A stretch of 64,000 nucleotides of DNA, from the NCBI RefSeq assembly GCF_024722375.1, contig NZ_CP102734.1, positions 124,001-188,000 on the forward strand, given 5' to 3'. Every line of letters begins with the position of its first letter. Within the stretch, counting starts at the first letter, position 1. This document shows positions 27,303 to 34,295 of this stretch, in pieces. Source of the DNA: Mycoplasma iguanae. GTDB taxonomy: Bacteria; Bacillota_I; Bacilli_A; Mycoplasmatales; Metamycoplasmataceae. The notes beneath the pieces are model-generated. The model was given only the letters and a program-made list of their open reading frames with translations. It ran no database searches and was not told the origin of the DNA. The translations under genes and the position numbers were made by a program.

Positions 27303-27444
27303 TTTTAAATATTAATGTGTGTAATTATCAATTAGCTTTTGATTATAATTGACTTTTCCTTGTAAATAAATATAGGAAATGTAGTTTAATGCAAGTATAT
27401 AATATTTATTATTTTCTTGTCATATATATTCATCTTCTGAACTG

Positions 27445-27887
27445 ACTTCTAAACAGGGCAGTAAAATGCTTTCACGACGAATATGTTCTTGGTTGAGTGC
27501 ATAAGAGTAACTATAAACACTAGAAACAAAAAGATTTGTTAGTATTTTTGCAAAAAAATAATTAACAGAATTATCTAATTTTTCTAAATCTTTATTTTTA
27601 TAATCCATCACATATGTATGTGATGTAGCAACAAAATCATAATCATGATAAAAACTATAACCTACACTACCATCTTTATTAATAGTTAGTTGATTTCTAA
27701 AAATAGGAATTGTTGGATCTAAATCATCCTTATTAATATACTTATAAGAATTATTTTTTGAACTAGTAACAACCTTAATGTAATTATCTTGAGCTTGATC
27801 AAGCAAATTATAATTTTTTAATGTCAATGATCCTGGAACAGTTATAAACTCAAATAAATCATCTAGTTTAAACGATTTTCAAATAAT
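27445..27887. repeat. Direct repeat copy B (second recognition domain)
   Basis: This 443-base unit is nearly identical over long stretches to copy A at 28088-28529 (442 bases), in the same orientation and offset by about 642 bases. The one-base length difference matches the A5 to A4 change in copy A. Confidence 0.85.
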
Positions 27888-28055
27888 ATTTGTTTTATCT
27901 TGTAAATAAGTTAATTCATACTTAGCTTTTTGTGCTTCATATTTAGCTTTTTGAGCTTCATACAATCTAATTGTTTTTTGCTCTTTATATTCTTTAGCTT
28001 GCTCCATTAAATCTTTTATATAATCAGTAGCAAGCGTATAATATTTACCATCTTC

Positions 28056-28071
28056 TATATATATATATATA
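28056..28071. repeat. (TA)8 dinucleotide tract inside the S gene
   Basis: Eight TA units in coding sequence at the start of the spacer region. Changes of unit number alter the frame: eight units join the downstream frame to ATG 28079, and one more unit would join it to the preceding segment of domain 1. Confidence 0.85.
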
Positions 28072-28087
28072 TTGGTCATCCGGTTTA

Positions 28088-28529
28088 ACTTCTAAACAGG
28101 GTAGTAAAATACTTTCACGACTGATATTTTCTTGGTTTAATTTATATGAATAATTGTAGATATTGTTAGTAAAAGATTTGATAGTATTTTTGCTAAAAAA
28201 TGATTAACTGAATTATCTAATTTTTCTAAATCTTTATTTTTATAACTTAAAATACACGTATCAGCAGTTGCGACAAAATCATAATCATGATAAAAGCAAT
28301 AACCTACACTACCATTTTTATTAATAGTTAGTTGATTTCTAAAAATAGGAATTGTTGGATCTAAATCATCCTTATTAATATACTTATAAGAATTATTTTT
28401 TGAACTAGTAACAACCTTAATGTAATTATCCTGCACTTGATCAAGCAAATTATAATTTTTTAGTGTCAATGATCTTGAAACAGTTATAAACTCAAACAAA
28501 TCACCTAGTTTAAACGATTTTCAAATAAT
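28088..28529. repeat. Direct repeat copy A (first recognition domain)
   Basis: This unit is the partner of 27445-27887. The best-conserved block runs from about 28276 to 28480, with only scattered differences. Such a pair is a substrate for recombination or gene conversion. Confidence 0.85.
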
Positions 28530-28746
28530 TTCACCCATAATTTATTCCTTATTTATTATTTAACAAGACTGTTTTTCACCAAATCATAAATTAAATTCAG
28601 ATCATGTTTTTTACAAAATTTAAAAATTATCCAGTTTGAATATTTTTAGTATTTTAATTTTACTAGCATTTTATATATTTATAATAATAAAGAAATTTTA
28701 ATTTTATGTTAAAATAAAAAACGTTACTTAATGTAACCATTCTAAA

Positions 28747-30902: not shown

Positions 30903-33900
30903 ATGAAAAAAATATATAAATGAAGCGCTCTTAGTGTAAGTACAATTACGCCTATTGCAATTGTAATTTCGTGTGCTCCAAGTTCAGAAAGTAGTAATCA
31001 GCAATTACAGTACAAAAATTATATAGATGCTGATGCTTCATGAACTGCAACTGATTCAACTGCAACTCTTAAACTAAAAAACTTAGGGCAATTCATTGGC
31101 AAAAAACTTGTTGTTAATTATCGTGAAGTAGGTTCAACTAACTTCGCTTCTTTACCTGTTGAAGGTGGAATTGCAATTAATGATCAAAATAAAGATAATT
31201 TTACAGTTACTCTAACAAAATTAGGTTCAAAAAAAGAGTATGAAGTTAGATTTAATATTTTAGAACCTGGTGATTCAAGTGTTATTGTTGCTAGTTCAAA
31301 TATTTGAACTAATGCTTTTACTACTAAAGCAGCACCAACTCCAGAACAACCAACTAGTCCAAGCCCTGCACCAACTACAGAAACTCCTCAAACTCCAGAA
31401 ACAAAAACTGAAGAATTTTCATATTCAACAGATTTAATTTCTTCAAATGAAGTTCATTTAGTTTTTAATAATCTACATGATTATGTAGGTAAAAGCTTGC
31501 AGATTAATTACAAAGAAGTTATTGATAAATCAAAATTTACTTTAGAGAATTATTTTGATGTAACTAAAAAAGCTCCAACATCATTAGAATTAACTTTCAA
31601 ATATCTAGAAGAATTTATTGGTAAAAAATTAAAAGTATCATACGCAAAAGAAACAACTGCATCAGCGCCAGCAACATCGCCAGAAACACCATCACCTGCT
31701 GTATCTGCCACATCAAGCGACACAAGCGACACAAGCGACACAAGCGACACAAGCGCTTCAACTCCAACAAGTGAGACAAGTCAATCTAATCCATCAAATG
31801 AAACAGCTACTCCAGCTCCAGCTCCAGCTCCAGCTCCAGCTCCAGCTCCTGAAACAGCTCCATCACCTATTACATATGAAGAAGCTAAACATGTAACATC
31901 AAGTGAAATTACTGTCGCAAATCAAAATGCTTTAACAGTTTCTTTATCTGGTTTAGAAGCATCTTCTAAATATAAAATTACAGTTTCTGTTATTACTGAA
32001 GCACCAGTACCTACAGAAGGTGAAACTGCTTCTTCTACTACAGAAACATCATTGCCTTTAGCTAATGAAACATCAAAAATTTTAGAAACACCTGCATCAT
32101 CAACTGCAGAAACAACCGAAACAGCTCCAGCTCCAGTTACTTATTGAACAGTTAATACAACCACAATTTCTGAAGTTAATAATCAAAAATTTAGTGTTCC
32201 ATTAACACAAGGTATTTCAAAAGAAAAAACTTATACTTTTGAAGTTAAAGCATTAAGTCAAAATTTAGTTAATTTTGGTACAGCAGAATCTACATTTACT
32301 ACTCCTAAAAGTACAGGTGTAAAATTTGAATTAATTAATAAAACAGCTAAAATATTTATTGAAAATATTTCTAAAAAATATGATGGTGAAGCTTTAACAG
32401 TAAGTTTATTGAAAAATTCAGCTGCTGTATCATCAAGTGCAACAATTGTGTTAGAAAAAGTAAATTCTAAAAATGCTTTAGTTCAAAATCAAAAATTAAA
32501 TCTTAATTTTGATAACTTAGAAGCAAACCAAGAATACACAATTCAAATTTCAGATCCTAAAACAGGGCAAATTATTAGTCAATTCTTTGATAGCAGTGCT
32601 GTTGTTTCATTTAAAATGTCTGAATCTATAAATAGCCTAGTGCAAACAGGACCTAAAACAGCAACTGTTAAATTAACAAATATAGACAAAAAATTAGCTG
32701 GTAAAAAAGTTGTTGTTGCATTTTTAAATAAAACAACAGATAAAGCAACAGCAGATTCTTTCAAAGATGAAGATCTTACTAAAAAGGTAGAAACTACACT
32801 TGCATTACCTACCGGAACTGATCAAAAATTAACAGCTAATTTAGAATTAACTGGATTAATTCCTGAAACAGATTATTTATATAAAGTATATTTAGAAGAT
32901 GCACCAGAAATTTCTTTATTAGATACTGAAGTAAATAATTTTAAAACTACAAAATTCCCTAGAGCAAAAGTAAATGCAGATAATAATGTAATTATTACAT
33001 TAGTAGGTAATAAAGTATCTGTAAATATTGAAAACATTGATAGTACATTTTCAAGTTCAATGCTTATGGCACGTGTTATTGAAAACCCAACCCCAAATGC
33101 TGCTTTAGATCCTACTATTTTAGACTTTTTTCCTGAAAATAAAAATAGTGTTAAAACTGGTAATGAATCAAAAGTAAATGCAGATAGTTCAAAAGAAATA
33201 ACTGTATCTAATTTAGATTCATCAGTGAAATATGTTTTACAACTATTCGTTCATGATCAAACAAATCCATTACTTGAATCACCCATTACTTTTACTTCAA
33301 ATCAAGCTCCAACAACAACTATTGTTTTAGATTCTGAAAATACTGTAAAAGTAAAAGTGGGAAGAACCCAAAATCTTGTTGGTGGAAAAATCAAAGTCAG
33401 TTATAGAAAAACTGGCAGCAGCAGCAGCAGCATGCCTTGACAAACAGCATCAACAAATGGATCTGCTACTCCACCAACAAGTGGTGATAATTCATATACT
33501 GTAGCTTCTTCTACAACTTCAAGTTCATCAGATTCATACGAATTTACTTTATCTAGTTTAGAAAAAACTGAATACCAAGTTAAAGTAGAATTCCAATCAC
33601 CTGGTGCAACTCAGTGAGATGAATTAAAAGAAGAAACATTTAAATTACCTAGCTCATCTACAGAATCTAAATTGGCTGGATCAATTATAAATCTTGATGA
33701 TGCACAACTAATTGCCGGATTAAATATTTTTGTTAAATACCAACTTAATAATAGTAGTGGAACATCAACTGAATGAACTAGCTCACCAACTATAGCAGTA
33801 AATGCTGAAGGAAAAGCAACTATAGAATTAAAAGGTTTACAAAAAAATGAAACTTACAAATATGAAGTTTACTTTAAAAAACCAGGAAGTAGCACAAATG

Positions 33901-34295
33901 ATACATTAACAGATACTAAACTTTTAGCTGAAAGTACATTTAAAACATATGGTGATCCTATTGCTACTGTTACATATGAAACAGGTCAAACTAGTGCAAC
34001 TATTAAAGTTTCACCATTAATTGAAAACGTATCTTCAATACTAACTTTACATTACCGTGAAGTAGCAGATGCAGCTTCTTCAACAACAAATAGTTGAAAA
34101 GCGGTAGAAGGTGCACCTCAAATCGTTACAGAAGCAAATAAAATTACTGGTGTTGAATTTAAATTAACAACTTTAGAATCAGGAAAAACTTATGAATACA
34201 AAGTTGTTGATGAAAAAGGAACAGAAATTATTATTCCAGCTTCATTAAAACCTAGTGATTCAACTCCAGCAGCAGGCTCAGCTGCCACATCTTAA
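30903..34295 (+). CDS. Very large surface lipoprotein with repeated beta-sandwich-like units and low-complexity linkers
   Basis: 1130 aa, continuous with UGA as Trp. Signal peptide with lipobox VISC (Cys24). The body has about eight related units of about 100-120 residues, each with a G-K-L-V-YRE or -YK strand motif (FIGKKLVVNYREV, YVGKSLQINYKEV, FIGKKLKVSYAKE, LAGKKVVVAF, LVGGKIKVSYRK, ILTLHYREV) and an SLSGLEASSKYKITV-like strand near the end, suggesting Ig/fibronectin-like folds. Linkers include Ser/Asp/Thr 9-base repeats, a Pro-Ala run and a Ser run. Likely an exposed adhesin or variable antigen; function unknown. No neighbour suggests a pathway. Confidence 0.88.
31716..31751 (+). repeat. 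Four 9-base tandem units (AGCGACACA)
   Basis: Four perfect units plus a partial fifth encode DTS repeats in frame. Changing the unit number would alter protein length without frameshift. Confidence 0.9.
31812..31847 (+). repeat. Six hexamer units (CCAGCT), Pro-Ala linker
   Basis: Six tandem units in frame encode a Pro-Ala run between two units of the lipoprotein, a typical extended stalk that can vary in length by slippage. Confidence 0.9.
33414..33431 (+). repeat. AGC triplet run (Ser stretch)
   Basis: About six in-frame triplets encode the GSSSSSM stretch of the lipoprotein. Confidence 0.8.

Follow-up and report, generated by a model that had tools for sequence, protein, structure and literature searches.

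A broken hsdS paralogue with an AT dinucleotide tract, probably a dispersed member of a phase-variable hsdS family in a mollicute

The hsdS gene described here lies in a window of 64,000 nucleotides (C1:124001-188000, GC content 27.8%), a stretch of a single-contig genome of 688,439 bp. The gene is a broken hsdS paralogue and not a working HsdS, since the frame is broken in this copy (copy W) and in both copies of the operon (copies B and C). Most likely, with a probability of roughly 55%, it is a dispersed paralogue belonging to an hsdM-hsdS-GmrSD module, and the AT tract that it carries would be the slipped-strand phase-variation tract of this hsdS family. Neither the window copy nor either operon copy has two recognition domains in one frame, and the assembly contains no intact two-domain S gene. 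All reading frames were translated with table 4, which reads TGA as Trp and without which several further long genes in the window are not open, and the mollicute assignment is marked by the genetic code.

The gene is located on the minus strand (28538-27312) and is split into ORFs of 133 and 255 aa (Table 1). Methylase_S (PF01420) is found above the cut-off in both halves, and there are six matching places genome-wide. When the six S halves are aligned, five T residues stand at the frameshift position in the second half of the window gene as well as in each of the four half-copies elsewhere, and as the fifth T is absent from the first half of the window gene alone, the simplest reading is that this half has suffered a single-base deletion. 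A preliminary description of this DNA had proposed that a run of four A residues on the plus strand breaks the frame, that the N-terminal frame therefore stops at 28137, that a (TA)8 tract lies at 28056-28071, and that ATG 28079 opens an intact product with the spacer and the second recognition domain, and on all four points the present translation agrees, the tract being one nucleotide longer. It had also stated that the tract reseals the gene, which holds for the register, as this is restored, but not for the gene, as there are in-frame stops between the two ORFs, one at 28137 and another before 28079. The N-terminal frame closes 57 bases ahead of ATG 28079, no clear ribosome-binding site for this ATG is seen in the upstream sequence CTACCCTGTTTAGAAGTTAAACCGG, and the AlphaFold model of the C-half has a pLDDT of 45.5, too poor for use.

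Table 1. Features of the window hsdS gene and location of the related three-gene modules
Feature	Coordinates	Strand	Remarks
Possible sigma-70-like promoter, TTAACA-17-TATTAT	28684..28712	-	Such sites are no more frequent in the region than in shuffles
N-terminal ORF, 133 aa	28137..28538	-	Covers recognition domain 1 for the most part; frameshift close to the end; ATG 28538, stop 28137; Pfam Methylase_S E 1e-8
T4 run (A4 on plus strand)	28171..28174	-	Frameshift cause; T5 in five other half-copies; alignment column 367
Shifted stretch, encoding the last part of recognition domain 1 out of frame	28080..28136	-	Stops in original frame; from three-frame translation and paralogue alignment
AT tract of 17 nt (8 dinucleotide units + 1)	28056..28072	-	(AT)8A on coding strand; 23-nt homologues in both operon copies
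C-half ORF, 255 aa, opened by internal ATG 28079 and running across the tract	27312..28079	-	Contains the spacer helix, recognition domain 2 and the C-terminal conserved region; Methylase_S match in Pfam at 67-212 (E 1.6e-10)
Spacer/central conserved region, 162 nt	27894..28055	-	Near-identical across all three paralogues
hsdM-hsdS-GmrSD/DUF262-like order, no adjoining HsdR	L011:9731-15699 (genome C1:517730-523698); L044:6439-11119; L051:5148-9836; L052:622-5252; L053:1032-5709		

By a genome-wide count of the AT motif, which did not include other dinucleotide motifs, (AT)5 or longer occurs in the 688-kb genome only in the three hsdS paralogues and at one homologous site, namely the end of recognition domain 1 at its junction with the spacer helix. 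A first-order Markov model leads to an expectation of about 6 ten-base AT windows and 0.0009 tracts of at least 17 nt per genome. The tracts of copies B and C are identical, and with one genome per species in the comparison the difference in length (17 nt against 23 nt) is seen among paralogues alone. Intact relatives have YIWEENG(K/R/H)(Y/H)YTLA or a similar YIW(E)EN-type motif at this site and no tract, and the single 10-nt AT run in the S gene of one of them (G077) is located near the far 3' end, away from the tract site. Each S copy has a short seed, ATATATATGA, in its second conserved region, which suggests a possible way in which the tract may have grown. With the repeat present in one species and its relatives tract-less, one could trace how a phase-variable tract arose.

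Within the hsdS coding region the tract is a simple repeat, and the reading frame depends on its number of units, as in tract-based phase-variable hsdS genes. When the number of units is 0 mod 3 (9, 12) the domain-1 frame is joined to the remainder and the internal ORF is closed, and both domains should then be found in one S subunit. At 2 mod 3 (8, 11) the domain-1 frame stops shortly past the tract and the internal ATG shares the frame of the spacer and domain 2, which might give a half-size S, and at 1 mod 3 (7, 10, 13) there is neither a fused nor a half-S ORF and neither product would be expected. If the tracts slip in vivo this would be a compact frame switch with three states, namely fused S, half-S and none, by which the mollicute resets its marked DNA via one simple repeat at three loci. 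The observed counts, 8 and 11, both belong to the 2 mod 3 class, with the half-S ORF open. This is weak evidence for selection, since there are two independent lengths and the chance of a shared class is about one in three, and the same class in three copies may instead reflect coincidence or gene conversion.

The preliminary description had further regarded the tract as a phase-variation switch between products. In favour of a switch are its restriction to hsdS, its shared position in the three paralogues, its two lengths, its absence from intact orthologues, and the unit count that sets the frame in which the tract is crossed. For the window copy the proposed exchange of products does not hold, because the N-frame ends before the tract and changes in unit number cannot alter the 133-aa product; by frame arithmetic, only the C-half would be under the control of the tract, and the first half is broken separately. 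The T-run deletion would thus lock out the full-length S of this copy, and the tract would only turn the half-S ORF on and off, given a start at ATG 28079. Switching of a complete two-domain S would need an intact first half, found in none of the three copies, and a full-length S is not obtainable by a tract change alone because all three first halves carry indels outside the tract.

A functional half-S from the window copy is possible by analogy, as half-S subunits, C-terminal ones included, can work as homodimers (PMC3874165, PMC6158711); the protein would then presumably start at ATG 28079, dimerise and work with HsdM. EcoDXXI delta-N, which is a C-terminal half-S, is active as a homodimer (PMC3874165), and like the engineered half-HsdS proteins the predicted product has one recognition domain with conserved helices, an architecture that permits dimerisation and the methylation of a palindromic site (PMC3874165, PMC6158711), although those proteins are engineered and the one described here is predicted from its gene. 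In the NgoAV hsdS of Neisseria gonorrhoeae a polyG tract decides between a truncated and a fused S (PMC9577141), and as in the present gene a short repeat inside hsdS splits it into two ORFs, with the length selecting a truncated or a fused two-domain S (PMC9577141; PMC3874165). NgoAV differs in having polyG instead of AT and in that its active truncated product is the N-terminal half, whereas only the C-half is open here; a further difference is the presence of three paralogues in this genome, in which HSDR_N gives no match. For mollicute HsdS, dinucleotide tracts have been described before, and those of at least 5 units in the HsdS of 'Ca. M. girerdii', also a mollicute, vary in length within the population (PMC5476646), with the variation expected to alter the product as it is here. 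The length variants of that organism were shown by reads and it has 20 such tracts of eight motifs (PMC5476646), whereas the present tracts are known from one assembly and (AT)5 or longer, AT alone being counted, is confined to hsdS. Tandem hsdS copies with truncated pseudogenes are found in M. faucium (PMC11062135).

Copies B (C1:519662-520952) and C (C1:520967-522222) are located in tandem beside hsdM, and their DNA is 87-88% identical to the window copy, which lies about 368 kb from this main locus (C1:517.7-523.7 kb). In the paralogue alignment the first half has one deletion in copy W, two single-base deletions in copy B and one in copy C; the second half of copy C has two deletions in the same columns as in B, and open C-halves are present in W and B only. 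Single-base undercalls at A/T runs in poorly polished paralogues of such high identity might account for these breaks, in which case the real genes would perhaps be unbroken except for the tract. Every frame-breaking indel is indeed a single-base deletion, mostly at the longest A/T runs, and two deletions are common to the N-half of B and the C-half of C though the intervening sequence differs. However, the deletion in the N-half of copy C removes a G, and 41 other window ORFs of at least 150 aa contain 320 A/T runs of at least 6 that are unbroken, which argues against a general assembly error across the window and leaves an artefact confined to the paralogues as an unlikely explanation.

The first halves of W, B and C differ mainly at third codon positions, with a pN/pS of 0.15-0.17 between them, indicating that the N-halves should have diverged as working proteins under strong purifying selection and were then broken recently, or that some of the breaks are sequence errors confined to the paralogues. 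Any decay would accordingly be recent, and this bears on the possibility that the window gene is an ordinary dead copy, a duplicated hsdS that has lost its function and carries the tract as a relic inherited from the operon copies. The frameshifted first half and the orphan position far from hsdM agree with such a loss, and if the whole system is being lost one would also expect the frameshifts seen in the N-halves of both operon copies and in the C-half of copy C. But the C-half ORF of the window gene is intact, as are hsdM and the GmrSD gene, and AT tracts of at least 10 nt are confined to these hsdS copies, so that a dead copy is possible but doubtful. The three paralogues have the same orientation and a near-identical spacer, and the identity between the first and second recognition domains of the window gene is mosaic: over the domain's first half it is 94.5%, over the rest 78.3%. 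These features would also suit a silent cassette from which the operon copies receive recognition-domain sequence through gene conversion, a rather unlikely role, as no intact recombinant is present in this genome and the tract would be left unexplained.

Copies B and C are flanked by an intact gene for a 494-aa methyltransferase and one for a 651-aa GmrSD_N protein, also intact, in which the GmrSD_C match is weak and just below the cut-off. The methyltransferase shows 64% identity to the one adjoining the intact hsdS of G077, identifying it as the cognate HsdM; it is without a Pfam match and matches a PADLOC type IIG methyltransferase profile with E 6e-16. Its best scores are with PADLOC type IIG profiles, of which it does not have the N-terminal part. 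For the HsdR of a type I restriction-modification system, the genome gives no HSDR_N match. G077 and three contigs from metagenome-assembled genomes (L051-L053) share this gene order, and their S genes are single intact ORFs, 411-423 aa long, which encode two recognition domains and have no tract at the corresponding site; in 5 of 5 modules a GmrSD-type or similar protein of 636-651 aa comes after hsdS. The M gene is rare, being found in 2 of 135 genomes of the family, and the S protein gave no match in a single-protein scan of named genomes, in which the genus is represented by this genome alone. Exact and profile scans of viral contigs found nothing. The conserved order may represent a GmrSD-type nuclease that is the partner of a type I-like methyltransferase; this order is the less familiar part of the system, as a full-text search gave no paper devoted to this order, which is no proof of novelty. 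In a far-reaching and improbable version, an HsdM-linked system without HsdR would alternate, through the tracts of three S genes, between a fused S of two domains with a bipartite asymmetric target and a half-S homodimer with a palindromic one, a GmrSD-type nuclease replacing HsdR, and if true tract length would retarget methylation and restriction alike.

The two recognition domains of the intact S gene at L052:2097-3332 are nearly identical, and a palindromic target is predicted. Upstream of hsdM, a protein of 334 aa (L011:16044-17048) looks by eye like a degenerate tyrosine recombinase, but as searches of Pfam, NCBIfam, PADLOC and PDB sequences gave no credible match, this assignment was not adopted. 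Two further N6_Mtase matches are present in the genome (G000:C1:301359-301697 and 313643-314071) and might belong to a second methylation system. The window also contains a lipoprotein-like ORF of 1130 aa (30903-34295) with tandem repeats of CAAGCGACA (x4.7) and CTCCAG (x6.7) in in-frame units, which makes it a candidate for size variation.
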